Positions 1 to 30,181 of a stretch of 64,000 nt of DNA are shown here, piece by piece (position 1 is the first letter of the stretch; every line of letters starts with the position of its first letter). Position numbers and translations under genes: made by a program. Under the pieces are notes generated by a model, which did no database searches, was not told the DNA's origin, and saw only the letters and a list, made by a program, of their open reading frames with translations. The stretch comes from Mycobacteriales bacterium (GTDB lineage: Bacteria > Actinomycetota > Actinomycetes > Mycobacteriales > SCTD01). The stretch lies in the NCBI GenBank assembly GCA_030447385.1, contig JAUJOY010000001.1:126770-190769 (forward strand). The letters run 5' to 3'.

Positions 1-17
1 TCTGCGGCGAGCTCCTG

Positions 18-1109
18 GTGCGCTCGGAGGCCGCCCAGGACGATGCCCTGCTCGCCGCGCTCACGCCGTTCGGCTTCACCAGAATGACGCCCGTCGACGG
101 GCTCGGCGGCCGGGTGCTGCGCCTGGCCGGCTGCGGCTCCGACATGGGCGCCCAGCGGCTGACCGACGCGGCCCGCTTCATCCGCACCGCTGGACACCAG
201 GCGTCGGTCAACCACATCACCCCGCTCGGCCCGGTCATGAAGGGCCGCGGAGGTCCCGAGAGCACCCCCGTCACGCTGCCCTTCCCGGCACCGTCGGCGG
301 ACGACGGCGCCGGGCAGCCGGTACGCGTGGCGGTCATCGACACCGGCATCAGCGCTCAGGAGCGTGCCGACGGCTGGCTGTCCGGACTCGCCCGCTCCGA
401 CAACGAGGACCCGCTGGACAACCTGCCGCAGCCCAACGGCTTCCTCGACTTCGGGGCCGGGCACGGCACCTTCACCTCGGGGATCGTCCAGCAGGTCTGC
501 CCGGACGGCGAGCTGGCCGTCTACTCCGCGGTCGACAGCGACGGCGTGGGGAGCGAGGCGGACGTCGCGTGCGAGATGGTGCGCGCCGTCCGCGAGGGCG
601 CCAAGATCCTGAACCTCTCCCTCGGCGTGGCCACGGTCGACAACCAGCCGCTGCTCGCGATCGAGGTGGCGCTCGACCTCATCGCCGAGATGGACTCGGA
701 GGTGCTGGTGTTCGCGGCGGCCGGCAATGACGGCACCGACGTGCCGTGCTGGCCGGCAGCCTCCAAGCGGGTCGTGGCCGTGGGCGCGCTGGCGCCCGAC
801 CTGACCCCTGCCGCCTGGAGCAACCACGGGTTCTGGGTGGACTGCTCCACGGTCGCCGAGGGCATCGTCTCGACGTACGTCTCGGGGGACGAGTCGCCCG
901 AGCTCGACCCGTGTCCCGACAGCTTCGGCCCCGACGCGTGGGCCGTGTGGAGCGGGACGTCCTTCGCCGCGCCGCAGGTGGCCGCAGCAGTGGCGCACGT
1001 CGCTCGGAAGGACGGGTGCCCGCCACGGGAGGCCTACCGGCGGCTGACGGCGGACTGCCGCACCCTGCCCGACTACGGCCGGGTGATCCCGCTGCTCCCC
1101 GGGACCTGA
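18..1109 (+). CDS. S8 family serine peptidase (subtilisin-like), possibly 5' partial
   Basis: Subtilase catalytic domain with all three active-site motifs, numbered from the GTG at 18: Asp108 in VAVIDTGIS, His149 in GHGTFTSG and Ser315 in SGTSFAAPQ, with the oxyanion Asn237 in AAGND. No signal peptide or prodomain is visible, so a cytoplasmic protease is likely. About 100 residues of uncharacterised N-terminal sequence precede the catalytic core. The frame stays open to the window edge (codons from base 3), so the true start may lie outside. It converges on the CHAT-domain protease gene with 25 bp between stop codons. That pairing suggests a protease-based signalling or defence role rather than nutrition; this is inference. 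Confidence 0.88.
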   Translation: MRSEAAQDDALLAALTPFGFTRMTPVDGLGGRVLRLAGCGSDMGAQRLTDAARFIRTAGHQASVNHITPLGPVMKGRGGPESTPVTLPFPAPSADDGAGQPVRVAVIDTGISAQERADGWLSGLARSDNEDPLDNLPQPNGFLDFGAGHGTFTSGIVQQVCPDGELAVYSAVDSDGVGSEADVACEMVRAVREGAKILNLSLGVATVDNQPLLAIEVALDLIAEMDSEVLVFAAAGNDGTDVPCWPAASKRVVAVGALAPDLTPAAWSNHGFWVDCSTVAEGIVSTYVSGDESPELDPCPDSFGPDAWAVWSGTSFAAPQVAAAVAHVARKDGCPPREAYRRLTADCRTLPDYGRVIPLLPGT

Positions 1110-1134
1110 GCCGCTCGTCGACGCCGTCGAGCTG

Positions 1135-3765
1135 TCATGCGGCCCCGAACGCGTTCCAGGCGCACCAGTTGACGAAGTCGCCCGGCTCGGCCAGGTCGAG
1201 CGTCGACCGGGCCGCGTGCAGGGCCTGCGCCAGCGTCCTGCCGGTCAGCGTGTGGTCGTGCAGGTCGCGCATGAAACCCACCGTCTCGACGTCGGGGACC
1301 ACCAGGATGCTGGCCACCAGACCGGCGGTGCCGCGCGTGAACAGCGCGCTGACGAAGCCCAGCATCTCGTCGCCCTCGTAGCCGACCTGCACGCCCGACT
1401 CGCAGGCCGCCAGCACCAGGCGGTGCGGTGCGTCGGCGCGGGCCGCGAGCTCGTGGACCGTGAGCCGGCCGCCGTGCAGCACGAGCGCGGAGAACATCGG
1501 GTTGTCCGCGCGCAGCAGGCCGTGACAGGCCAGGTGGGCCAGCGAGACGCCCTGCAGCGCAGCCGTCACCGCCTCCACCGTGCTGTGCGGCGGCAGCAGG
1601 ACCTCGGCCGCCGGATGCCGCTCGGCCAGGGCCGTGACCTCGGTGGCGGCACCTGGCAGACCGGGACCCGCGACCAGGGCGACCCGGTCGCTGGCGGCGG
1701 ACCGACGGGCGGTGCGCGCCCACAGGGCGGCCGACGGCGCGATCGTCGTCGGCGCGGTGTGCAGGCACGACCACGGCACCCCCGACAGGTCCGCGCTGGG
1801 CAGGACGACCAGCGGGACGTCCGGTCGAAGCGACAGCGGGCGCACCAGCAGCTCGACCAGGCGCAGCCGGGAGGCATCGGCGCTCGCGCGGGCGGCCGCC
1901 GCGGCCGCCGGCGAACGCGGCCGCGGCATGCGGCGAAGGGCGAACAGCAGTGCCTCGGCGGCTCGAACCGCCGCTGCCGTCGGGCCGAGCGGGACCAGCC
2001 GGGTGCGGCGGCGCTCCAGGACCACCGCCGTGAGCGCACCGTCCAGCGAGCCGTACATCACGAGGACCTGGTCGCCGAGCAGCCCCCTCAGCTCGGCCGG
2101 GTGCGAGCGGCCGGCGGACGTCTGCGTCGACCGCTGTGCTGTCCAGGACGCCCGTCGTACGCGGTCCTCGGCGGCCGCGACCCGCGCCACCAGCCCGGGC
2201 GGCTCCGCACCCCCGCTGCGTGCCTCCTCGAGCTCGCCCTGCGTCCCCCGCAGCGCGGCCAGCTCGTCCTCGAACCCGGCGGTGGCCGGGACGTCCACGC
2301 CGACGAGGGCGGCGGCGCGCGTGCGGTCCATCCAGTCCAGCACCTGCACCGGGGTCCCGGTGGGGAGCACCGCCCGCAGGCCGAGCCGGCCGAGCTCGGC
2401 GCCGTGGCCCGAGGCGAGGGCGCGCAGCTCCATCGACGGCAGCGCGGCCTGGTGCGCCGCGAGATCGGCGAGGCCCGCGCGACAGTGCCGCAGCACCGCC
2501 ACCCCGTCCCCAGAGTGCTGCGCGCCGAGGGCCGCGGCCACCCGGCCGCGAAGGCGCACCAGCACCGGTGCCCGCCGCGCCAGCCGGTCGGCGCGCGCGA
2601 GGCTCGAGAGCGCCTCCTGCGTACGCCCCCGGACCAGCGCCAGGCGCCCGGCCGCCAGATGGCCCTCCACGGCGTCGGAGCGCAGGCCGAGCCGGTCGAG
2701 GGTGCTCGCCGCCGCCTGCAGCCGGCGCAGCGCCGACAGCGGCAACGGGCCCTGCAAGGCCAGCGCCTCGACCGCTGTCACGTCGGCGCGGGCCACCCAC
2801 GCCGTGCGCCCCTGGCGGCGCAGCAGAGCCCGCGCGCTGCGGGCCGCCGCGGCGGCCTCCTCGGCCTCCCCGGCCAGCAGGTGGAGCCGGGCGGAGCGCA
2901 GCTGGGCCTCCGCTGCCATGAGCCGCGCCTCGTGCTGTCCGAACTCGCCCGCGGCGCGGGCGGCGGCGGCCTGGGCCTCGGGCAGCAGGCGCAGGCCGAT
3001 CAGCGCGTCGGCGTACTCGACGAGGTGCTCCCCGAGCGGCAGGCCGGCCTTCTCGTAGAGCACCCCGGCTTCCTCGAACCGGTGCAGGCTCTCGGCCAGC
3101 CGGCCGACCTGCATGGTGATCCAGGCCCGGCTCTGGCTGACGATGGCGTGCGGAGCCGGCCCCAGCTCGGCCGCCAGGCGCAGGGCCTGCTCGACGTGCT
3201 CCTGCGCGGCGTCCCAGCGGCCCAGCCCGACCTCCAGGAGAGCCAGGTTGTTGGTGACCTTGACCAGCACCTGGGGCGGGCAGGCGTCCCGATCGAGCAC
3301 GTCGCGGTAGAGCCGGGCGGCGTCGTGGAGGCGGCCGATGTTCTGGTGCAGCGCTGCCTGCTGGAGCACCAGCTCGGCGCCGCACTCCGGCCCGACAAGG
3401 GCGGCCGCCCGGTCGAGGTCGTCCTGCGCCGCCGCCAGCCGGCCGAGCTCGTGGGACACGGCGGCGCGGCTGACGAGGATCTCGCCGAGCCGGCTGTCCA
3501 GCCCTCGGCGCGAGGCCAGCCGGGCGGCCGAGTCGAGCAGCACGCGGGCGCGCTCGTTGTCGAGCCGCACGTGCTCGCCCCACGCCCAGGCGCGCAACCC
3601 GACGACCACCGCCTCGGCCGCGCCCGCCGTACGCGCCCGCTCGACGACGTCGGCAGCGGTGCTGCGGTAGCGCTGGGCGTCGACGAGGACGCCGCGGTAG
3701 ACGGCCTCGGCCTCCTCGAGCAGCGCTGCTCCGGCGTCCGGCTGGGCCGCGAGGGTGCGGATCAC
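1135..3765 (-). CDS. TPR-CHAT domain protein (caspase-like peptidase)
   Basis: 876-residue protein. The N-terminal two thirds is an Ala/Leu/Arg-rich helical array typical of TPR repeats; the C-terminal third is a CHAT (caspase HetF associated with TPRs) domain. The probable catalytic dyad is His748 in LAHLACHG and Cys788 in LAACESG, the usual CHAT signature. The GTG at 3765 was chosen because GAGAGGGAG lies 4 nt upstream and the sequence further upstream (Arg/Gly/Ser-rich) looks non-coding. CHAT proteins are known as regulated proteases in bacterial conflict systems, the TPR array sensing or binding a partner. The facing subtilase gene is the obvious candidate partner. Substrate unknown. Confidence 0.88.
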   Translation of the reverse strand: MIRTLAAQPDAGAALLEEAEAVYRGVLVDAQRYRSTAADVVERARTAGAAEAVVVGLRAWAWGEHVRLDNERARVLLDSAARLASRRGLDSRLGEILVSRAAVSHELGRLAAAQDDLDRAAALVGPECGAELVLQQAALHQNIGRLHDAARLYRDVLDRDACPPQVLVKVTNNLALLEVGLGRWDAAQEHVEQALRLAAELGPAPHAIVSQSRAWITMQVGRLAESLHRFEEAGVLYEKAGLPLGEHLVEYADALIGLRLLPEAQAAAARAAGEFGQHEARLMAAEAQLRSARLHLLAGEAEEAAAAARSARALLRRQGRTAWVARADVTAVEALALQGPLPLSALRRLQAAASTLDRLGLRSDAVEGHLAAGRLALVRGRTQEALSSLARADRLARRAPVLVRLRGRVAAALGAQHSGDGVAVLRHCRAGLADLAAHQAALPSMELRALASGHGAELGRLGLRAVLPTGTPVQVLDWMDRTRAAALVGVDVPATAGFEDELAALRGTQGELEEARSGGAEPPGLVARVAAAEDRVRRASWTAQRSTQTSAGRSHPAELRGLLGDQVLVMYGSLDGALTAVVLERRRTRLVPLGPTAAAVRAAEALLFALRRMPRPRSPAAAAAARASADASRLRLVELLVRPLSLRPDVPLVVLPSADLSGVPWSCLHTAPTTIAPSAALWARTARRSAASDRVALVAGPGLPGAATEVTALAERHPAAEVLLPPHSTVEAVTAALQGVSLAHLACHGLLRADNPMFSALVLHGGRLTVHELAARADAPHRLVLAACESGVQVGYEGDEMLGFVSALFTRGTAGLVASILVVPDVETVGFMRDLHDHTLTGRTLAQALHAARSTLDLAEPGDFVNWCAWNAFGAA

Positions 3766-4078: not shown

Positions 4079-4519
4079 ATGGTGCACAGCACCGACGGTG
4101 AGCACCCCCCCTCGGCTGAGAACTACCGCCACTGCGTCGAGATGCTGCTCGAGAACGACCCGCGCATGGCCCGGCGCGCCCGCTCACTCGTGCGCAGCAA
4201 CCTCAGCGGCTGGGGCGTCCCCGAGGAGTGCATCCACGTGGTGGTCCTGCTCACCAGCGAGGCGGTCAGCAATGCCGTCGTGCACGCGCCGCCGCCGGTG
4301 CACGTGATCCTGCGTCATGGTGACCCCGGGGTGCGCGTCGAGGTCGTCGACTCGCGACCCGAGCTGCGGATGCCCTCCCGGCCGCACCCGGATCAGACCG
4401 GGGGCCGCGGCCTGTGGCTGATCCAGATGCTGGCGACCCGGTGGGGGCACCACGAGCACGGGCTGGGCAAGGTCGTCTGGTTCGACGTCGAGAGCACGCC
4501 GACGCTGCAGCCGGCCTGA
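4079..4519 (+). CDS. ATP-binding protein, RsbW/SpoIIAB-like anti-sigma kinase fold
   Basis: 146-residue single-domain GHKL ATPase. Visible motifs are the N box (EAVSNAVVHA, about residue 60), the G1-like segment (VEVVDSRP) and the G2 box (GGRGLWLIQML). Proteins of this size and type in Actinomycetota act as anti-sigma factors or kinases of anti-sigma antagonists, or as stand-alone partners of PP2C phosphatases. No cognate sigma factor or STAS antagonist lies beside it; the nearest PP2C phosphatase in the window is far away at 31.2 kb. It precedes the cyclic-nucleotide-binding gene on the same strand after a gap of more than 100 bp, so co-transcription is uncertain. Confidence 0.85.
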   Translation: MVHSTDGEHPPSAENYRHCVEMLLENDPRMARRARSLVRSNLSGWGVPEECIHVVVLLTSEAVSNAVVHAPPPVHVILRHGDPGVRVEVVDSRPELRMPSRPHPDQTGGRGLWLIQMLATRWGHHEHGLGKVVWFDVESTPTLQPA

Positions 4520-4792: not shown

Positions 4793-5104
4793 GTGACGCT
4801 TCCGGCCAGCTGGTCGGTCATCGCCGAGCGCACCCCCGCGGACAGCTCCTACGTGCTGCTCTCCGGGGAAGTGCTGGTGCGGGCAGCAGGGCGTGATGTC
4901 GCGACCCTCGGTGCCGGATCCCTCTTCGGTGAGACGGGGCTGCTCGGCAAGCAGCTGCGGACAGCAACGGTGACCACCCTCACCCGGGTGCGGTTGCTGG
5001 CCATCCCCTACGGGGAGCTCGAGCAGCTGCTCGGCGCCCAGCCGCACCTGGCGGATGCGCTGCTGGCGGACTACCGCCGCCGTTCTGCCGCGACGTCGAC
5101 CTGA
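4793..5104 (+). CDS. Cyclic nucleotide-binding domain protein (N-terminus apparently frameshifted)
   Basis: From the GTG at 4793 this is most of a Crp-type cNMP-binding beta-barrel without a DNA-binding domain. The phosphate-binding cassette is present: GET (FGETGLLG), then RTATV with the conserved Arg. The same frame upstream encodes CPEQQLRCLAAAGRE, which looks like a genuine domain start, but it meets a stop at 4673 and has no ATG or GTG. A different frame (ATG at 4633 or 4675, ending 4755) supplies a basic lead-in (RRQNRAQRRRLEADLAA). A one-base indel between about 4735 and 4753 would join the two into a protein of about 145 residues. The neighbouring cyclase gene converges on it, so it may read the same nucleotide signal. 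Confidence 0.6.
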   Translation: MTLPASWSVIAERTPADSSYVLLSGEVLVRAAGRDVATLGAGSLFGETGLLGKQLRTATVTTLTRVRLLAIPYGELEQLLGAQPHLADALLADYRRRSAATST

Positions 5105-5237: not shown

Positions 5238-8200
5238 TCAGGAACCCGACAGCGAAACCGCCGGGAGCTGCTGCCACAGCAGGCGATGAACCAGGACCGG
5301 CTCCGCGAAGCCCTTGAGTCTCATGCGGCACCCGCGGTCGAAGGCGAGCCCGGCAGCGTTCGAGACCGCCGTGCGGGTGTCGACGGAGAGCAGCACCTCA
5401 CCGGCCCGAGCCCGTGCCGCGATCCGGAACGCCAGCACCATCGTGCGGCCGTACATCGACGCGCCCTCGCGCAGGACGGCACCGGTGTGCACCCCGAGGC
5501 GGAGTCCGGTCCCGCTGTCGCCCGCCCGGAGCTGCAGCTGCGCGGCGCAGCGGAGCGCGTCTGCTGCGTCCGGGAACGCCAGGAGGACCCCGTCACCGAG
5601 GCTCTTCAGCGCGGTGCCGCGGTGCCGGGAGGCGAGGTCCTCTGCCAGCTTGCGGTGGTCGCCCAGGAGCCGGAAGCCGAGCTCCTCGCCGAGCCGCTCG
5701 GTCAGCGCCGTCGACCCCGCGATGTCGGTGAGCAGCAGGGTGACCGGGGCGCCGGGCGCGGGTGCCGACGCCCGCAGGAGCGTCGCGTGCCGGGGCATGT
5801 CCAGCGAGTCGGCCAGCCTCGTCGCGCCGGCCGCCACCTGCTCGGCCGCGATCCGGTCGGCCGGCTGCCCGGTCCGCAGGAGCGTCGTGACCTGCTCGTG
5901 CGCCGTGAGGACCTCGAGCCCGCGTGCGCCCCGCTGCTGGTGTCGGCGCGAGGCCTGCTGCAGGTGCTGGCGGGCGCGGTCCCACTGGCCGAGCGCGCGG
6001 CAGAGCATCGCCAGGGGGAGCTCGACAGAGGTGAAGGCGACGGCGCCCGCGGCGATCACGACATAGCGATCGGCGTACGGGTCCAGCAACGCGAGCAGCT
6101 GCCCGCACCGCGCGACGTCGCTGACCCTGGCAGCGGTCATGGCGGCGAAGGTGGCTGCGGTCAGGAAGTTGCCGTCGCGGGGCAGGTCGGCGAAGTCGCG
6201 CGCCGCGAGGACATCCAGCTCCGCCTGCGCGGCCTCCGGCCGGTCCGTCTCGGTGTAGATGTAGGCCAGCGCGGCCCGCCACGCCGGGGCGTGCGGATAT
6301 CGGTCGGCGAAGGAGCGGGCTGCCGCGACCACCTCGTGCAGCTGGCCCTGAGCCCACCGCGTGACCATCGTCTGCGCCCCGTAGACGACCATCGCCATGT
6401 CCGCGTGGCCTCGTCTGCCCAGCCGGAGCGCCTCGTCCTTGAGCCGGTCGGCCTCACGCACGTTGCCCTCGAGCAGGGCCCGCATGGCGTCCCACACCGC
6501 CACCTGCCACCGGTGCACCGGGTGCCGGGTCAGAGCCGCGAGCCGGCGGCAGCTGTCGATCTCGGCCTCCGCCTGCTCGAGCTGCCCCGACTCGAGCCAG
6601 ATGTTGATCCGCAGGTGATGGGCCCGGAAGACCATGTCCGCGTCCTCCAGCGAGCGGGCGAGCCGCAGCACGCGCTCGGCGCTCGTACGCCGTTCCTCGA
6701 GCCCGTCCGGCCCGAGCAGGGCCCACGTCCTGCTGTAGCGCGCGACGAGCTCGACCCTGCGGTCGCCGAGGCGCACCGCCATCTCCAGCGCCTGGGTGGA
6801 CAGCTCGAGGCGTCGGCTCTGGAACGGCGTGAAGTACAGCTCGGTGGACAGCCGAGCGAGCACCCGTACGCGCAACGCGCTGTCCTGCTCGTCGAGCATG
6901 GCCAGCGACTCCTCGAGCAGCGCCAGCAGCTCGCCATCGGCCCGCTCGGCGAACCCGAAGCCGCCCAGGCCGTTCCCCGTGCCCAGGGCGGCGCGGGCCA
7001 GCAGCTCCGGCTCGCCGAGGAGCAGCGCGAGCTCGGCAGCCCGGGAGAAGGTGGCCCGGCTCTCGTCGGCTCGGCCGGCCCGGCACTGGGCCTCCCCGAG
7101 CGCGAGCAGCAGCTCCCCAGGAGGGGGCCGGTCCTCTCCTGCCGGCAGACCCTCGGCGAGGTGCCGGGCCTTCTCGTAGTGCGCGACCGCCTCCTCCCAG
7201 CCTCCTGCCGCCTCGGCGACGCGCGCCGCCCGGATGCTCCACTGCACAGCCAGCCGCGGACTGCCCGCGTCGGCCGCGCGGACGAAGTGCCCAGCCAGCT
7301 CCGCGGCCCGCTCCTCCAGCTCGTCCGCGCGCAGATCCAGCAGAGCCCTTCCGGCCAGCAGGTGCAGCTGCGCGCGTTCCAGCGGCCCGATGGAGTCGTA
7401 GAGGACCTCCTGCACGAGCGCATGGGGGAACCGGTGGGCCGCACGCACCCCCGGCAGGGGAACGAGCAGTCGCTGCCCGACCGCCTCGTGCAGCAGCGGC
7501 AGGAGCTCGGGCCCCGTACGACCGGAGACCCGGGCGAGCAGGTCGAGCGGGACCTCCCGACCGAGCACCGCACAGGTGCGCAGCAGCGTCACGCAGCCCG
7601 GGCCCACCTGCTCCAGCCGGCGCAGCAGGAGCTCCCGCACGCCGCCTGGCACGCCCGCATCCACCGGAAGTGCGGCTGGCCCCTGCAGTCGATGCTCGGC
7701 GAGAAGCAGGTGCACCAGCTCCGAGAGGAAGAACGGGTTGCCCTCGGTGCGGTCGTGCAGCGTCCGGATCGACGGAGCCGCGAGGGAGAGCCCGGACAGC
7801 CCCGAGACGAGCTGCTCCGCGGCCCCGAGAGGCAGGCCCCGCAGCGTCAGGGTGCGCGCCGCCGGGGTGGACAGGGCCCCGAGCGCCGCTGCGAGGTCGG
7901 GCAGGGGTGAGGTCAGCTCGCGGGCACAGGCCACCAGCAGCAGGCGGTTGCCGGCGGCCTCGCGAGCGGCGTGCCGGAGCAGTGCGAGTGAGGCCAGATC
8001 GGCCCAGTGCACGTCGTCGAGCACGACGAGGACCAGCCCCGTTCCCGCGATCCCGTGCAGCACCCGGCTGACCGTGTCGAACAGGCGGAAGCGGGCGTCC
8101 TCACCGTCGAGGCCGGAACCCTCAGCAGCCGAGGAGGCGAGCAGCGCCTCCAGGAGATCCGCATCCCAGCCGAGCAGTTCGCGCAGCGTGTCCTTGCCGA

Positions 8201-9323
8201 GCTGCTCCACGGCTGCCCGCAGGACCTGGATCCAGGGCCAGTACGCCGGTGCGCCCTCGCCATCCGGGCACCGTCCGCTCAGGACCATCGCACCCGTGCG
8301 GCTCGCGTCGCGGGCGAGCTCCGCGGACAGCCGGGTCTTGCCGATGCCCGGCTCGCCGAGCAGCAGCACGAGCCCGCCCTGGCCCCTGTCGGCGTCGGCG
8401 AGAGCGGTGCGCAGGACATCGAGCTCGGGCTCCCGGCCCACGAACAGCGACCGCTCCTGCGGGTCCGCCTCCGGTGGCGGGCCGAGCATCGCGTCGAGCG
8501 CACCTGCCACGTCGGCAGCGTCAGGGGGCCGGTCAGCGGGGTCGGCCGCCAGCAACCGCAGCACGAGAGCATCGAGCGCCCCGGGGACACCTGGACGGTG
8601 CCGGGAGGGCGCCTCGTGGCCCTGCCCGCGTTGCAGGCTCAGGAAGGAGGGCAGTCCCGGGGCAGGCAAGGGAGGCCGGCCCACGAGGAGCTCCCACAGG
8701 ACGACGCCGAGGGAGTAGAGGTCGGCGCGCCGGTCCGGCGGCGCGCCGAGCGCCTGCTCCGGAGCCACGTAGGCGAGGGTGCCGACCACCGCTTGCGGCT
8801 CGACCGTGCGGTCCTCTTCGAAGGCGGCCAGGCCGAGGTCCCCCAGCACCGCTCGACCCTCCGCCGTCAGCCAGATGTTCTCGGGCGCGACATCCCGGTG
8901 GACCAGCCGCCGGGCGTGCAGGTCGGCCAGAGCGAGCGCGAGGTCACGGGCCAGCGCGAGCGCCCGCGGGAGGGGGACGCGGCCCCCGGTCAGCAGATCA
9001 CGGACGGACCCGCCTTCGAGGTACTGCGTCACGACGAACGGCCGGTCGCCGACCTGCCCGACGTCATGCACGCCGACGACGCCCTGGCTCGCGTCGAAGC
9101 CGGCGGTCAGAGCAGCCTCCCGGCGGAGGCGAGCGGCCTCGCCCGGGTCGTCGCTGCGCAACAGAGACAGCGTCACCTGCCGATCCAGCCAGGTGTCGGT
9201 GACCAGCAGCACCCGCTTGCGGGACCCCTCCCCCAGGGGCCGCTGGACGCGGTAGCGGCCGGCGAGAAGCGCGCCGTCCGCTGCGCAGGCGCAGGGCGGT
9301 CCGCTGCAGACGGCGCAGGTCAC
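5238..9323 (-). CDS. Multidomain kinase-like / AAA ATPase / TPR / class III nucleotide cyclase
   Basis: 1361 residues. A Cys-rich N-terminus (Cys3, 6, 11, 13) leads into a Ser/Thr-kinase-like domain (about 20-280) with a Gly loop near 30, HRDVAPEN (Asp144, Asn149), DLG (Asp162) and APE. An AAA-16 ATPase follows (Walker A GEPGIGKT 323-330; Walker B LVLVVLDDVHWAD), then a long helical TPR region, then a class III cyclase from about 1194 with metal Asp1200 (TDIAGST), Lys1240 and Asp1244 (KSLGDG), and Arg1300. The kinase VAxK lysine is Ser53 and the cyclase transition-state Asn is Val1296, so either activity could be reduced. It overlaps the upstream Crp-type gene by ATGA, so the two are co-translated. 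cAMP or cGMP product cannot be told from sequence. Confidence 0.88.
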   Translation of the reverse strand: MTCAVCSGPPCACAADGALLAGRYRVQRPLGEGSRKRVLLVTDTWLDRQVTLSLLRSDDPGEAARLRREAALTAGFDASQGVVGVHDVGQVGDRPFVVTQYLEGGSVRDLLTGGRVPLPRALALARDLALALADLHARRLVHRDVAPENIWLTAEGRAVLGDLGLAAFEEDRTVEPQAVVGTLAYVAPEQALGAPPDRRADLYSLGVVLWELLVGRPPLPAPGLPSFLSLQRGQGHEAPSRHRPGVPGALDALVLRLLAADPADRPPDAADVAGALDAMLGPPPEADPQERSLFVGREPELDVLRTALADADRGQGGLVLLLGEPGIGKTRLSAELARDASRTGAMVLSGRCPDGEGAPAYWPWIQVLRAAVEQLGKDTLRELLGWDADLLEALLASSAAEGSGLDGEDARFRLFDTVSRVLHGIAGTGLVLVVLDDVHWADLASLALLRHAAREAAGNRLLLVACARELTSPLPDLAAALGALSTPAARTLTLRGLPLGAAEQLVSGLSGLSLAAPSIRTLHDRTEGNPFFLSELVHLLLAEHRLQGPAALPVDAGVPGGVRELLLRRLEQVGPGCVTLLRTCAVLGREVPLDLLARVSGRTGPELLPLLHEAVGQRLLVPLPGVRAAHRFPHALVQEVLYDSIGPLERAQLHLLAGRALLDLRADELEERAAELAGHFVRAADAGSPRLAVQWSIRAARVAEAAGGWEEAVAHYEKARHLAEGLPAGEDRPPPGELLLALGEAQCRAGRADESRATFSRAAELALLLGEPELLARAALGTGNGLGGFGFAERADGELLALLEESLAMLDEQDSALRVRVLARLSTELYFTPFQSRRLELSTQALEMAVRLGDRRVELVARYSRTWALLGPDGLEERRTSAERVLRLARSLEDADMVFRAHHLRINIWLESGQLEQAEAEIDSCRRLAALTRHPVHRWQVAVWDAMRALLEGNVREADRLKDEALRLGRRGHADMAMVVYGAQTMVTRWAQGQLHEVVAAARSFADRYPHAPAWRAALAYIYTETDRPEAAQAELDVLAARDFADLPRDGNFLTAATFAAMTAARVSDVARCGQLLALLDPYADRYVVIAAGAVAFTSVELPLAMLCRALGQWDRARQHLQQASRRHQQRGARGLEVLTAHEQVTTLLRTGQPADRIAAEQVAAGATRLADSLDMPRHATLLRASAPAPGAPVTLLLTDIAGSTALTERLGEELGFRLLGDHRKLAEDLASRHRGTALKSLGDGVLLAFPDAADALRCAAQLQLRAGDSGTGLRLGVHTGAVLREGASMYGRTMVLAFRIAARARAGEVLLSVDTRTAVSNAAGLAFDRGCRMRLKGFAEPVLVHRLLWQQLPAVSLSGS

Positions 9324-10051
9324 CGGTCCTCCACGACCGGCCGCTCCTGAAGGCCCGCTCGTCGCCGCAGGGCCTCGACGTCGTCGAGCACGATCTCCCG
9401 GCCCTGCACGTGTAGCAGCCCCCGTGCGGCGAACACGGCGAGGACCTGGTTGAGGCTCTGCCGGCTTCCGCCTGCCAGCTCGGCGATCCGCGCCTGACCG
9501 AGCCGGACGACGCGCGGCCCGCCACTCTCACCGGCCAGCAGGACGAGCGTCTTCGCCACTCGGCCGGACAGGTCCAGCAGCACCGCATCCGCTGCCGATG
9601 CCGACGCGCGGCGCACCATGTCGCCCAGCGCAGCGAGCAGCCCGTCCAGGAAGCCCGAGCTCCCCGCGGCGCAGCGCAGCAGCTCGTCGCGGTGCAGCTC
9701 GAGAGCCAGCGTCATCTCGACCGCCTCGACCGTCGCCGTCCGCGGCGAGCGGTCCAGCACCGTCACCTCGCCGATCACCGCCGGCGGCCGCAGGTGGGCG
9801 ACAGCCGCCCGCCTCGTCGACGAGGCGCGGTAGACCGTGGCGGATCCCTCGAGCAGCACGAGGACCGAACCGCCAGGCTCGCCCTCCCGGACCAGAGCCG
9901 TCCCGGGCCCGAAGCGACGCAGCCGGGCGACCTCGGCCAGTCCAGCCAGCGCCTCGGGACCGAGGCGGCCGAGCAAGGTCGTGCGGCTCAGTGCCGCAGC
10001 GCAGGCAGCCTGGTCCCAGGTACCCGACGCCGCCACGGCTCTGGCTGCCAC
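9320..10051 (-). CDS. Crp/Fnr family transcriptional regulator
   Basis: 243 residues: an N-terminal cNMP-binding barrel (about 25-145) and a C-terminal Crp-type winged helix (RIAELAGGSRQSLNQVLAVFAARGLL). The binding cassette keeps Glu in GEVTVLD and Arg in SPRTATVE, the residues that contact the cyclic nucleotide ribose and phosphate, so ligand binding is plausible. It is the first gene of a two-gene operon and overlaps the cyclase fusion by four bases. The arrangement suggests that the cyclase makes the ligand for this regulator. An 18-bp dyad at 10109-10126, 58 bp before the start, is a candidate site of autoregulation. Confidence 0.9.
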   Translation of the reverse strand: MAARAVAASGTWDQAACAAALSRTTLLGRLGPEALAGLAEVARLRRFGPGTALVREGEPGGSVLVLLEGSATVYRASSTRRAAVAHLRPPAVIGEVTVLDRSPRTATVEAVEMTLALELHRDELLRCAAGSSGFLDGLLAALGDMVRRASASAADAVLLDLSGRVAKTLVLLAGESGGPRVVRLGQARIAELAGGSRQSLNQVLAVFAARGLLHVQGREIVLDDVEALRRRAGLQERPVVEDR

Positions 10052-10173: not shown

Positions 10174-10671
10174 ATGACAGCCTCGAGCAATGCGGGCTCC
10201 CGGGCAGCAGACGTGGTGAGCGCTCCCCTCGTCCTCGCTGCGGCGACCGCAGCTGTGCGCGACCTCCTGCAGAACGCGCTGACCGCGGACTTCCCCGGTG
10301 CCGTCGTGAGCACGCACACCCCCGACCGGGTCCCGGACGACGGCCTGCAGAGCCGGCTGAACCTCTTCCTGTTCCGGGTCGCGCCGGACGCCGAGACGGG
10401 GATGACGCTGCACTACCTGCTCACGGCCTACGCGGCCGAGGATGACCAGCTCACCAGCCAGCGCCTGCTGGGCCGTGCCGCCGGGCTGCTGCAGGAGTGC
10501 CCCGTGCTGTCCGGCGCCGCGCTGGCGACCGGCTCGGGCGTACGCCAGATCCGCCTGTCCGCAGACGATCTGCCCATCGAGCGGCTGTTCCAGCTCTGGA
10601 CGACGTTCCGCTCGCCGTACCGGCTCTCGCTGGCCTACCGCGCACAGGTCGTCGTGGACGAAGCGACGTGA
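10174..10671 (+). CDS. DUF4255 / Pvc16-type N-terminal domain protein
   Basis: 165 residues from the ATG at 10174 (a GTG at 10216 is also possible). The pattern LNLFLFRVAPD...LHYLLTAYA...LLGRAAGLLQECPVL...LWTTFRSPYRLSLAYR fits the Pvc16_N (DUF4255) family. Members form the tube-cap/terminator protein in extracellular contractile injection systems and also occur in phage-tail-like clusters. None of the other expected genes (sheath, tube, baseplate, AAA ATPase) is present here, so this is an orphan or a reused copy. It overlaps the next gene by GTGA, implying translational coupling with a methyltransferase. Confidence 0.78.
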   Translation: MTASSNAGSRAADVVSAPLVLAAATAAVRDLLQNALTADFPGAVVSTHTPDRVPDDGLQSRLNLFLFRVAPDAETGMTLHYLLTAYAAEDDQLTSQRLLGRAAGLLQECPVLSGAALATGSGVRQIRLSADDLPIERLFQLWTTFRSPYRLSLAYRAQVVVDEAT

Positions 10672-18746: not shown

Positions 18747-20192
18747 ATGCGCCTTCCTGCTGCCCTGGCCACTGCCTGCCTCTGCGTCACGGGACTGACC
18801 CTTCCGGCCGCCGCGGACACGCCACAGGAGGGCCGCTACGTCGTCCGGTTCGCTGTGGGGATCAGCCCGCAGGACGGGGCGCGCGAGGTGCGCGGCGGTG
18901 GCGGGCAGGTGGAGCGGGTGCTGGAGCACGTCTTCTCCGGGTCGGTCGCGCGCCTGTCCGAGCGTCAGGCGGTCGCCCTCGCCCGCAACCCCCGGGTCGC
19001 GTACGTCGAGGCTGACCAGGTCTTCCGCGCCGTCGACACCCAGAGCTCCCCGCCCTGGGGCCTCGACCGCTCCGACCAGCGCGGGCTCCCGCTCAGCGGT
19101 GGCTTCAGCTGGACGGCGAACGGCACAGGTGTGAGCGCGTACGTCGTCGACACCGGAGTCCGGGCAGACCACGTCGACTTCGGCGGCCGCGTCACCGCCG
19201 GTTACACCGCGATCAGCGACGGCAACGGGACCAGCGACTGCAACGGACACGGCACGCACGTGGCCGGCACCGTCGGGGGTAGCACGTACGGCGTCGCCAA
19301 GGCCGTCCGCATCGTGCCCGTCCGCGTGCTGGACTGCGCCGGGTCGGGCACGACCACCGGCATCATCGCCGGCCTGGACTGGGTGATCGGGCAGCACGCG
19401 GCCGGCACGCCCGCGGTCGCCAACCTCTCCCTCGGCGGCGGCACCTCGAGCTCGCTCGACACCGCCGTGCAGTCCACCATCAGCGACGGCGTCAGCGTCG
19501 TCGTCGCGGCCGGCAACAGCAACACGGACGCCTGCACCACCTCACCCGCCCGGGTGGCCGCGGCAGTCACCGTGGGTGCGACCGACTCCGCCGATGCCCG
19601 CGCGTCGTTCTCCAACTTCGGCACCTGCCTGGACCTGTTCGGCCCGGGAGTGGGCATAACCTCGGCCTGGTACACCTCCAGCACCGCAGCCGCCAGGCTC
19701 AGCGGCACCTCGATGGCGGCGCCGCACGTGGCGGGAGCCGCCGCGGCGCTGCTGCAGGTCGACCCGGCGCTCTCGCCCGCGGCGGTCGCCGACCGGCTGA
19801 ACACGACGGCCACCACAGGTCTGGTCACGTCAGCCGGCACCGGGTCGCCGAACCGCCTCCTGTGGGCCGACCCCGCCCCGGTCGCCTCCACGAGCCCGAC
19901 GGCCACCGCGCCCGCCTCGCCCAGCAACGTCACCGCGGTCGCCGGCAAGAGGTCGGCCACCGTCAGCTGGACCATGGGGAGCGACGGCGGGTCGCCCCTC
20001 ACCGGGCAGACGGTCCGGGTCTACGCCGCCGGCAGCCTTGCCGGAACGGTCGCGGTCAGCGCGAGTGCCACCTCCGTCAAGATCGGCGGGCTCACCGCGG
20101 GCACCCCCTACACGTTCGGCGTCACGGCGACCAACGCCGTCGGGACCAGCGCCGAGTCGGCGCGCAGCAACGAGGTCGTGCCTCGGCGCTGA
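18747..20192 (+). CDS. Secreted S8 serine peptidase with I9 propeptide and FnIII tail
   Basis: 481 residues from the ATG at 18747 (GGAG just upstream). Signal peptide to about residue 23 (LPAAADT). Inhibitor I9 prodomain (YVVRFAVG...VAYVEADQVF). Proteinase K/aqualysin-type catalytic domain: Asp in AYVVDTGVRADH, His in CNGHGTHVAG, Asn in VVAAGNSN, Ser in LSGTSMAAPHVAG. A Ser/Thr/Pro linker then a fibronectin type III domain (SNVTAVAGKRSATVSW to the end). Paired cysteines in the catalytic domain fit an exported enzyme. A nutritional or matrix-processing extracellular protease is most likely. Confidence 0.93.
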   Translation: MRLPAALATACLCVTGLTLPAAADTPQEGRYVVRFAVGISPQDGAREVRGGGGQVERVLEHVFSGSVARLSERQAVALARNPRVAYVEADQVFRAVDTQSSPPWGLDRSDQRGLPLSGGFSWTANGTGVSAYVVDTGVRADHVDFGGRVTAGYTAISDGNGTSDCNGHGTHVAGTVGGSTYGVAKAVRIVPVRVLDCAGSGTTTGIIAGLDWVIGQHAAGTPAVANLSLGGGTSSSLDTAVQSTISDGVSVVVAAGNSNTDACTTSPARVAAAVTVGATDSADARASFSNFGTCLDLFGPGVGITSAWYTSSTAAARLSGTSMAAPHVAGAAAALLQVDPALSPAAVADRLNTTATTGLVTSAGTGSPNRLLWADPAPVASTSPTATAPASPSNVTAVAGKRSATVSWTMGSDGGSPLTGQTVRVYAAGSLAGTVAVSASATSVKIGGLTAGTPYTFGVTATNAVGTSAESARSNEVVPRR

Positions 20193-27220: not shown

Positions 27221-30181
27221 CTAGTCCCGGTCGATGCGCACCAGCAAGGAGCCCGCACTTCCGGGAGAGGCCTTCCGGTCGAGCCCGAGCTCCACGAGCC
27301 CGAACCAGGTCGTGCCCGGCCCCATCGCCGGCTCGTTCCAGGCGAGGGTCACGTCGTAGGGCTTGCCGGCGGCCACGACACCGCTCGGACCGGTGGCCGT
27401 GAGGTTGCCGGCGTCGGTGCCCGGGACGTTCGCGACGACCAGCTCGGCGTCGTCGACGACCTGGCCGGTGAGGAAGTTCTGGACCACCACCCAGTACGAG
27501 CCCGGCTTCGGGTTGGCCAGCAGGCAGGACTCCAGGGCGGTCTCGCTGGCGCTGCGGCAGACCTCCTCCGTGGCCACCGCCTTGCCGTCGCCGTTCGAGT
27601 CCAGCCCGACGAACAGGTCGAGGTCGTTCGAGGTCGTCGAAGCGATCTCGGCCGCGAGGACGCGCGCTCCCTCTGCCACCTTGACGAGCTCGGTGTGCGA
27701 TCCAACGCCGTCATAGGGGTCGAGCAGCGTCGGGTCCTGCGTCACCGTGACGTTCTTGGCGACGCCCTCCGCAAGCCCCAGCACGTTCGTCGTCAGGCCG
27801 CTGATGCGGGCCGGGGCCGTGAGCGTCTGGGTCGCGGTGCCCGAGGTGCCGGTGGACACGAGGTTGACGGGCACGGGTGCGCCACCCGGCAGCACGGCCA
27901 CCGGCAGGTGCACGCCGGGCGCCTGCTTCGCCCGCTCGACCATCGTCAGCTTGGCGAAGCGCCAGGTGCCTGCGCGCAGCCCGGTGACGTCCGCGGTCAC
28001 CGTGATGGGCGCGCTCTGACCGGGGGCGAGGGTGACGCGGTTGGGCTTGGCGGTCAGCTTCATCCCGGCGGGGACGACCGAGCTGATGTCCCAGGTCGCC
28101 GTCGTCGTCAGGACGTTGGTCACCGTGCGGACCCAGGTGCAGGTCGCCGCGCAGCTGCTGCTCGCCATGCTCGGCAGGTTCAGCGCGCTGGGGTTGCCGC
28201 CGGCCGCGGGATTGGCGGCGTTGAAGGTCGCCGCGTCCTTGCCCGCGCCGCCCGTCTCCAGGGTGAGGCCGGCCAGGGCGGCCCTGGTGAGGTCCACCCG
28301 TCCGGCACCGCGGTCGAACGGGTCGGACGGCGTGGTGCCGTCCTCCTTGCGCATGCTGTCGGTGGCGGTGGTCATCAAGGCGGACTGCACCTGAGCGACC
28401 GTCCACTCGGGGTGCACGCCGCGTACGAGCGCCGCGCTTCCCGCCAGGTGGGGGCCGGACATCGACGTGCCGCTCAGCAGTCCGAACTCGGGGCCCGCGG
28501 TCGGGTCCGTGGTGTGCACGGCCGCGAGGATGTCGACGCCGGGCGCGGAGATGTCGGGCTTGAGCACGCCCGGCACGGACTTGTTGGGGCCGCGCGAGCT
28601 GAAGCCGGCCATGACGTCGCCATTGCTAGGCGCCGTGCTGGCGGTGGCCCCGGAGATCGTGCCGGTGTGTCCGGTGCCGCCGTCGTTGACCCAGGCGACC
28701 ACCTTCTCCGCCGCCGAGAAGCCCAGGTGCACGGCGGGAAGGACATGGGCGTCGGCCACGGTGGACTCGCCTTCGGCCGCGGTGTTGAGCAGCACCATGC
28801 CGCCGGCACCGCCCATCTTCACGTTGTTGCCCTTCTCCACGCGGGGGTTGACGCCGCGCTTGCACAGCACGATCTGCCCCGTGAAGGTGCCGGGCAGGAA
28901 CGGCGCCCCGCACAGCTCGTCCCCGAAGCTCTTCGCGTCCACGACCGGCGCCGGCCCGTACCCTCCGGTGAAGCCACCACCCGCCAGCGTTCCCGGGGCA
29001 GTCCCGCCGCCGCTCGTCACGAGGCTGTTGCCGAACGCGCGGTTGTGCGTGCTCGCCGCGACGCTCGTGACCCACGGCGCATCCGAGGGCGAGCCGACGG
29101 TGCTGGCGGCAGGCCCCGAGTTGCCCGCCGAGGCGGCCACGAAGACGCCGGCGTCCCGGGCGCCGAGGAAGGCCTGCGCGTCGGGGTCGGTCCACGGGTC
29201 GGTGGAGCCGCCGCCGATCGAGTAGTTGATGACGTCCACCCCGTCCGCGGTGGCCTGGTCGATGGCGGCGACGGTGCTGGGCGAGAGGCACCCGGGCACC
29301 GTGCAGGCCTTGTAGGTGATGAGGTTGGCGTGCGGCGCGACGCCCGAGATGCGGCTGGCGAACTCCTTCGTCGGAGCGCGGAGGACGGCCTGGACGTGGT
29401 TGCCGACCGTGGTGCTGGCGGTGTGGCTGCCGTGCTGGTTGTCGTCCTCGGGGGAGGTGCCGGTGAAGTCGTAGACCCCGATCAGCTTGTCGTTGCAGAA
29501 GGGCAGGCCCAGCAGCGGGTCGCACAGCCCGTAGTAGGCCGGCCCGCCCAGCAGGTTCTTGCGCGGGTTCGTGTGGTCATAGCCGTCCGCACCGACGTCC
29601 GCGAAGGACGGGTGGTCGGAGTTGATGCCGGTGTCGATGACGCCGACGACCACGCCTTCCCCTTGCTCCTTGGCGCCGCCCGGCGTCTTCTGACCGCTCC
29701 AGACGGTGGTGGCACCGATCCAGGCCGGGCCGGCGTCGGTCAGGAGCTGGCGCAGGACGGCCGGCTGCACCCGCAGCACGCCCGGCAACGACTGGAGCCG
29801 CTTTGCCTCGGCAGCCGTGAGCGAGACGGAGAAGCCGTTGTAGGCGTGGCGGTAGTCATGCGCCCGCGTGATGTTGCGCCCCACGGCCGCTTCGAGCGCC
29901 TTCTCCACCGCGGCGTGCCGTACCGACAGGTGGCTGAGATAGGCGCGGCTGGCCGCACTCGTGACGTCCAGCCGCGCCTTCCCGATGGCCGAGGGGCTCG
30001 TCGCCGGGAGCCCGGCCAGGCCGCCGCGGTAGCTCGCCAGCGGCGCCTCGGCCAGCTGGACAACGTAGCTCTTCTGCTCGCCGGCCGCGGTGGCGGGGGA
30101 GACCGCCACAACGGTGCCCGCCGCAGCGAAGGCCACGGCGGCGGCGAGGGTGAGGTGGAGAGCGTGCGGGCGTCGCCTCAT
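27221..30181 (-). CDS. Large secreted S8 serine peptidase with PA insert
   Basis: 986 residues. Signal peptide (LTLAAAVAFAAAGTVVAVSPATAA), I9 prodomain (SYVVQLAEAPLASY ... GVLRVQPAVL), and a lactocepin/C5a-type catalytic domain: Asp in VVGVIDTGINSDHPSF, His in NQHGSHTAST, Asn in ASAGNSG, Ser in LSGTSMSGPHLAG. A PA domain is inserted before the Ser motif (GQIVLCKRGVNPRVEKGNNVKMGGAGGMVLLN). The C-terminal 350 residues are beta-sandwich modules, including an immunoglobulin-like block and a pre-peptidase-like segment (LDLFVGLDSNGDG...GSYWVVVQNFL). Extracellular protease of streptomycete/plant subtilase type. Confidence 0.94.
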   Translation of the reverse strand: MRRRPHALHLTLAAAVAFAAAGTVVAVSPATAAGEQKSYVVQLAEAPLASYRGGLAGLPATSPSAIGKARLDVTSAASRAYLSHLSVRHAAVEKALEAAVGRNITRAHDYRHAYNGFSVSLTAAEAKRLQSLPGVLRVQPAVLRQLLTDAGPAWIGATTVWSGQKTPGGAKEQGEGVVVGVIDTGINSDHPSFADVGADGYDHTNPRKNLLGGPAYYGLCDPLLGLPFCNDKLIGVYDFTGTSPEDDNQHGSHTASTTVGNHVQAVLRAPTKEFASRISGVAPHANLITYKACTVPGCLSPSTVAAIDQATADGVDVINYSIGGGSTDPWTDPDAQAFLGARDAGVFVAASAGNSGPAASTVGSPSDAPWVTSVAASTHNRAFGNSLVTSGGGTAPGTLAGGGFTGGYGPAPVVDAKSFGDELCGAPFLPGTFTGQIVLCKRGVNPRVEKGNNVKMGGAGGMVLLNTAAEGESTVADAHVLPAVHLGFSAAEKVVAWVNDGGTGHTGTISGATASTAPSNGDVMAGFSSRGPNKSVPGVLKPDISAPGVDILAAVHTTDPTAGPEFGLLSGTSMSGPHLAGSAALVRGVHPEWTVAQVQSALMTTATDSMRKEDGTTPSDPFDRGAGRVDLTRAALAGLTLETGGAGKDAATFNAANPAAGGNPSALNLPSMASSSCAATCTWVRTVTNVLTTTATWDISSVVPAGMKLTAKPNRVTLAPGQSAPITVTADVTGLRAGTWRFAKLTMVERAKQAPGVHLPVAVLPGGAPVPVNLVSTGTSGTATQTLTAPARISGLTTNVLGLAEGVAKNVTVTQDPTLLDPYDGVGSHTELVKVAEGARVLAAEIASTTSNDLDLFVGLDSNGDGKAVATEEVCRSASETALESCLLANPKPGSYWVVVQNFLTGQVVDDAELVVANVPGTDAGNLTATGPSGVVAAGKPYDVTLAWNEPAMGPGTTWFGLVELGLDRKASPGSAGSLLVRIDRD

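Follow-up and report, generated by a model that had tools for sequence, protein, structure and literature searches.

The window analysed here is a 64,000-nucleotide stretch (G000:C9:126770-190769; guanine-plus-cytosine content 72-77%) of an actinobacterial genome (G000) that comprises 3.4 Mb on 13 contigs. At its left end lie two converging genes, both judged real, encoding a subtilase of peptidase family S8 and a TPR-CHAT caspase-like protease; this pair, and the sigma-factor module in which its relatives are found, are the subject of the analysis. The subtilase gene stops with TGA at 1107-1109 and the CHAT gene with TGA at 1135-1137 on the minus strand. A sequence-only reading had described two protease families converging with 25 bp between stops, and the coordinates, Pfam scores and catalytic residues confirmed this description. 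The features of the pair, in window positions, are as follows.

1..1109, plus strand: apparently leaderless pro-subtilase (peptidase family S8, Pfam PF00082), 457 aa in full, its first 265 bases preceding the window

3..209, plus strand: predicted subtilisin-type prodomain, beta-alpha-beta-beta-alpha-beta in the AlphaFold2 model (model residues 1-69, protein residues 90-158)

210..323, plus strand: flexible linker from prodomain to catalytic domain, a candidate activation-cleavage region (predicted local distance difference test [pLDDT] <50 at model residues 77-86)

324..1106, plus strand: S8 catalytic domain with Asp202, His243, Asn331 and Ser409 located, conserved among CHAT-linked homologues

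1110..1134, no strand: 25-bp intergenic gap between the converging stop codons, read from the sequence

1135..3765, minus strand: TPR-CHAT caspase-like protease, 876 aa, GTG start, with Pfam CHAT and TPR matches

1195..1860, minus strand: CHAT domain (Pfam stretch, residues 636-857), with the His748 codon at 1522-1524 and the Cys788 codon at 1402-1404

3046..3369, minus strand: TPR region, top-scoring stretch, residues 133-240 (TPR_MalT 24.2 bits and TPR_12 23.6 bits, neither of which reaches the Pfam cut-off)

The CHAT protein scored 110.5 bits against the Pfam CHAT model (PF12770, cut-off 24), and the CHAT family profile matches kinesin light chain TPRs. The dyad residues lie in the contexts AHLACHGLLRA (His748) and LVLAACESGVQ (Cys788). 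Both were kept in 81 of 81 aligned CHAT sequences, in agreement with the earlier description of the dyad as intact; some alignment columns near it belonged to the search pattern, and only the dyad counts as independent. On the basis of its domain and intact dyad, the CHAT protein is predicted to be a protease. The CHAT gene is present in a single copy in G000, which carries 10 S8 genes in 3.4 Mb. From this density, an S8 gene would lie within 3 kb of CHAT by accident with a probability of about 2%, a figure that leaves conservation in other genomes out of the count.

The subtilase scored 76.8 bits against Peptidase_S8 (cut-off 21.8). Its reading frame is open through the left window edge and position 18 is not a start; according to the upstream sequence, the gene probably begins with an ATG at G000:C9:126505, 265 bases outside the window, which the sequence-only reading had suspected it might leave. 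The catalytic residues were identified as Asp202, His243, Asn331 and Ser409 in full-length numbering, and the Asp/His/Ser triad was kept in 68 of 69 homologues, the exception (L063) being a truncated hit. AlphaFold2 was run on the part of the subtilase within the window with 39 homologues in the alignment and gave a mean pLDDT of 84.7. The model consists of a beta-alpha-beta-beta-alpha-beta unit (block pLDDT mostly 84-93, one block 74), a linker with a low-pLDDT middle, and the catalytic domain. Its top matches among solved structures were pro-subtilisins in unprocessed form, with alignments running from residue 1 to residue 364 or 365: pro-subtilisin E (3whi; Z 31.1, 307 residues, root mean square deviation [RMSD] 3.9) and pro-Tk-subtilisin (2e1p; Z 30.4, 310 residues, RMSD 4.0). 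Because these best matches begin at residue 1, the N-terminal region, earlier called unrecognised, is a subtilisin-type prodomain by predicted fold, and the fold suggests that it inhibits the protease. The pro-subtilisin fold matches the whole modelled chain (Z 30-31); unlike these proteins, the window subtilase has no signal peptide and has about 90 additional N-terminal residues ahead of the modelled part. Leaders were called with a simple hydropathy test and by reading sequences with guessed starts, rather than with a trained predictor. No hydrophobic leader was visible in the window subtilase by these means, so that it looks like a leaderless, probably intracellular zymogen, consistent with its earlier description as non-secreted. 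Its top NCBIfam S8 match was the type VII secretion mycosin model (TIGR03921), at 88.5 bits against a cut-off of 278.75; the subtilase thus falls short of the mycosin model and has no leader.

Homologues were drawn from a family set of 24 genomes, an order sample of 61 genomes, and a GTDB contig scan of about 85,000 species genomes. In the family set, a CHAT homologue and a P0007-like (window-type) subtilase were found in the same 3 genomes. The two genes are divergent neighbours in G002; in G023, contig ends cut the CHAT gene, and its N-terminal half adjoins the subtilase on the other contig. The GTDB scan yielded 80 CHAT loci. An S8 gene accompanied CHAT at a distance of up to 3 kb in 56 of the 60 loci with at least 3 kb of flank on both sides, in divergent (34), tandem (21) or convergent (1) orientation. 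With flanks of at least 4 kb, 51 of 55 loci had an S8 gene within 4 kb, compared with 0.014 expected per locus within 4 kb each side from the background density in the same flanks (1 S8 gene in 576 kb of farther flank). The reverse test in the order sample gave 24 subtilase matches at an expect (E) value of 1e-30 or better, 20 of which had CHAT within 2 kb; the four exceptions are G047:C17, G047:C29, G044:C122 and a second CHAT-type subtilase of G000. All 18 subtilase-positive genomes lie among the 30 CHAT-positive genomes of the 61 (Fisher p 7e-8). The sequence-only reading had proposed comparing homologue neighbourhoods for repeated co-occurrence, and would have yielded to the two genes occurring independently in most genomes; the comparison found them linked in both directions.

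Phylogenetic comparison, made among loci with both CHAT and S8 sequences, revealed that the two trees agree. Both window genes pair with Virgisporangium ochraceum (L024) and then with Cellulomonas phragmiteti (L023), and 8 of the 9 other G000 subtilases fall away from the group of the window subtilase. The CHAT and S8 distances of 56 pairs correlate with r 0.70, and those within Actinomycetota with r 0.62; 0 of 2000 permutations reached the observed value in either case. Shared species history adds to this correlation, and more weight falls on the fact that both window genes group with the same other families. Two-way co-occurrence, matching trees and shuffled gene order together link the two genes functionally, and the sequence comparisons strongly support the view that CHAT and the subtilase form a genuine functional unit under conservation.

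The second CHAT-type subtilase of G000 (G000:C9:116447-117229, within L125:12421-13899, minus strand) lies 10 kb upstream of the window and groups with the CHAT-linked subtilase of L062. It has a short ANPFR repeat after a prodomain-like region and sits next to a large gene of ATPase-like type; CHAT, sigma and small-protein genes were not found nearby. The G023 partner subtilase (L020:15900-17189, minus strand) has a tandem RISGGMVG repeat before its catalytic domain, and the linkers of CHAT-linked subtilases may be repeat-prone. Two more S8 genes in the window, at 19122-19820 (plus) and 28355-29662 (minus), fall outside the CHAT-linked clade of the S8 tree.

Clustering of flanking frames revealed two further families recurring beside CHAT: a sigma factor of the extracytoplasmic function (ECF) type, with Sigma70 region 2 at 47 bits, and a small protein of about 150 aa with weak similarity, below cut-off, to CarboxypepD_reg. 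The structure model of the small protein shows N-terminal helices and a beta-sandwich (mean pLDDT 90). Structure matches were also tried as a means of naming its fold; they returned only beta-sandwiches at Z of about 9 and below, which is not diagnostic. The S8, sigma and small-protein genes all lay within 4 kb of CHAT in 47 of 55 well-flanked loci from four phyla (33/39 in Actinomycetota, 7/7 in Pseudomonadota, 4/5 in Chloroflexota and 2/3 in Acidobacteriota, with one locus unassigned). The sigma and small-protein genes are adjacent on the same strand in 63 loci, and in G002 a single frame joins sigma-70 region 2 (Pfam Sigma70_r2 just under cut-off) to the small-protein domain; no other fusion of module members was found. 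Three well-flanked loci (L039, L073 and L094) hold CHAT, sigma and small protein with no subtilase detected. In most Actinomycetota, both CHAT and the subtilase are leaderless. The partner subtilases of Chloroflexota, Pseudomonadota, Acidobacteriota and some Rubrobacter-like genomes have a signal-like hydrophobic stretch before a classic propeptide, and CHAT is followed by S8 in tandem in the three named phyla.

This gene set resembles the neighbourhood of ECF54 sigma factors, for which a review lists carboxypeptidase, subtilase and CHAT in the gene context and proposes proteolytic control (PMC8999054). The association of CHAT, subtilase and sigma is therefore not new in itself. With the terms tried, our literature search found the CHAT-subtilase pair named nowhere beyond this review, and it turned up no experiment on the association. 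As in the ECF54 neighbourhood, CHAT and subtilase are joined in most relatives by an ECF-type sigma factor and a carboxypeptidase-regulatory-like small protein; the likeness is one of gene context. The arrangement in G000 differs in that CHAT and the subtilase face each other, detached from the sigma and small-protein genes. Most relatives carry the sigma factor and the carboxypeptidase-like small protein close by; the window locus has neither, and homologues of both lie on another contig (C10:22543-23612; E 6e-75 and 6e-37). The earlier expectation of further components was thus borne out by these two additional module members, although G000 carries them on C10 and not just upstream of the subtilase. 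The nearest kin of the C10 genes are in the same-genus genome G017 (72% and 64% identity), followed by Micromonospora and L039/L048. Since these differ from the nearest kin of the window pair, the C10 genes seem not to share the history of the C9 pair. A conserved upstream element is visible among Saccharothrix relatives; it was not recognised by eye in G000.

Around the C10 genes, a 600-aa frame with no Pfam match (L117:10496-12292, plus strand) is divergent from the sigma factor. Close sigma homologues occur in seven further genomes (L118-L124, from G017, G008, G014, G007, G020, G010 and G005), usually with a diverged small protein. No CHAT or subtilase gene was present within the stretches examined there, and regulator-like and polysaccharide-type genes recur nearby in several of them.

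Taken together, we propose that CHAT and the subtilase form the protease half of an ECF-sigma regulatory module like that of ECF54, a reading that, with the mechanism and the split set out here, we hold to be evenly poised between right and wrong. In this scheme, for which we infer the order of events, the substrates and the assignment of the small protein as an anti-sigma, the TPRs of CHAT would sense a signal and switch on its Cys/His protease. Activated CHAT would cut the small protein, acting as an anti-sigma-like partner, or the sigma factor itself, and thereby change sigma activity. The subtilase, a zymogen that has no leader and carries an inhibitory prodomain followed by a flexible linker, would be the second protease, unlocked to complete the processing; it may alternatively be the output of the module. 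In G000, the module would be split between the convergent CHAT and subtilase genes on C9 and the sigma and small-protein genes on C10, the latter being the presumed partners of the C9 pair.

The small protein is probably the substrate of CHAT, by analogy with two characterised systems. In the first, the TPR-CHAT protease Csx29 cuts Csx30, an inhibitor of the ECF sigma factor CASP-sigma (PMC10028731). That system shares with the present module a TPR-CHAT protease, an ECF sigma factor and a third protein, whose cleavage relieves sigma inhibition. The window CHAT protein, however, scores only 16.2 bits on the Csx29 model NF041237 (cut-off 300), the small protein of about 150 aa has no NCBIfam match to Csx30, and the present module adds a subtilase. 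In the second system, CalpL cuts the anti-sigma CalpT, which holds the ECF sigma factor CalpS (PMC11417357). Here, too, a protease cuts an anti-sigma bound to an ECF sigma factor, but CalpL is a Lon-type protease with a SAVED sensor rather than a TPR-CHAT protein, and its system lacks a subtilase.

Several observations weigh against the proposed sigma-module role. Profile and structure comparison detected no similarity of the small protein to known anti-sigma proteins or to the Csx30 family. Three well-flanked loci (L040, L053 and L063) carry CHAT and S8 with no sigma or small-protein gene nearby, and neither gene was found near the G000 pair, in the window or in 22.8 kb upstream. The C10 genes do not group with L023 and L024, unlike the window pair. 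Judged by their leaders, the subtilases of Chloroflexota, Pseudomonadota and Acidobacteriota look exported and, in those phyla, could not reach a sigma factor in the cytosol. The literature search found no biochemistry for any module member.

Among the other explanations, a chance encounter with one member of a common protease family might be entertained given the 10 S8 genes of G000 and the variable gene orientation among relatives, but it is refuted by the observed excess of S8 genes over the expected 0.014 per locus and by the matching trees. A role in anti-phage conflict, with CHAT as the sensor-activator and the subtilase as the killing protease, has a precedent in the TPR-CHAT protease working in CRISPR type III-E (PMC10028731), to whose Csx29 the CHAT domain is weakly similar. 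On the Csx29 model, the CHAT protein reaches 16 bits against a cut-off of 300. PADLOC gave no family for the CHAT protein at E 0.01 and only generic S8 similarity for the subtilase, and no defence genes were among the recurrent CHAT neighbours, although no scan for CRISPR arrays or defence islands was made. As the documented context is ECF54 regulation, the conflict-system role suggested by the sequence-only reading found no support, and we consider it highly improbable.

A stand-alone cascade of the two proteases would need no sigma factor: CHAT would cleave the subtilase in its prodomain linker, or be cleaved by it, with the subtilase serving as executioner. The leaderless state of both proteins in G000, the prodomain with its flexible linker, and the window, L040, L053 and L063, which carry the pair with no local sigma gene, all point in this direction. 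Most relatives nevertheless include the sigma factor and small protein, and we regard the stand-alone cascade as doubtful. The exported-looking subtilases of the three other phyla would lie away from a cytosolic CHAT, and L039, L073 and L094 lack a detected subtilase; a direct cascade, as raised by the sequence-only reading and possible in most Actinomycetota, where both proteins are leaderless, therefore cannot be the general mechanism. A bolder version, in which CHAT directly unlocks a cytosolic pro-subtilase in Actinomycetota and the cascade can run without the usual sigma factor, as an independent bacterial counterpart of initiator and executioner caspases, appears unlikely. The subtilase might instead be a sigma-controlled effector protease, an output rather than a signalling step, exported in some phyla and intracellular in most Actinomycetota, with CHAT and the small protein alone controlling the sigma factor. 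The same three loci, in which no subtilase was detected, fit this arrangement, as do the signal-like leaders and the tandem CHAT-then-S8 order in Chloroflexota, Pseudomonadota and Acidobacteriota. However, since the zymogen of Actinomycetota has no leader, its activator or target must lie inside the cell, and reading the upstream regions of the G000 subtilase, CHAT and sigma genes by eye recognised no common promoter motif, leaving the output role similarly unlikely in our estimate.

If the sigma-module reading is right, control of an ECF sigma factor by a CHAT protease, which the literature found has shown only for type III CRISPR, would reach a widespread module tied to CRISPR by no annotation seen, and a second, zymogen-type protease would be added to it. 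The module consists of few genes and is portable, and its split form in G000 may show which parts work without the others.

Other genes near the pair were noted. An anti-sigma-like HATPase_c_2 gene (4079-4519, plus strand) and a cNMP-binding gene (4793-5104, plus strand) are divergent from the CHAT gene; they were considered as module partners and dropped, as neither family recurs beside CHAT elsewhere. A 1361-aa protein (5238-9323, minus strand) combines a protein kinase, an AAA ATPase, TPRs and a nucleotide-cyclase domain, and the adjacent Crp-like regulator (9320-10051, minus strand) may form a cyclic-nucleotide signalling pair with it. A Pvc16_N (DUF4255) gene lies at about 10189-10671 (plus strand); components of this type are known from extracellular contractile injection systems.

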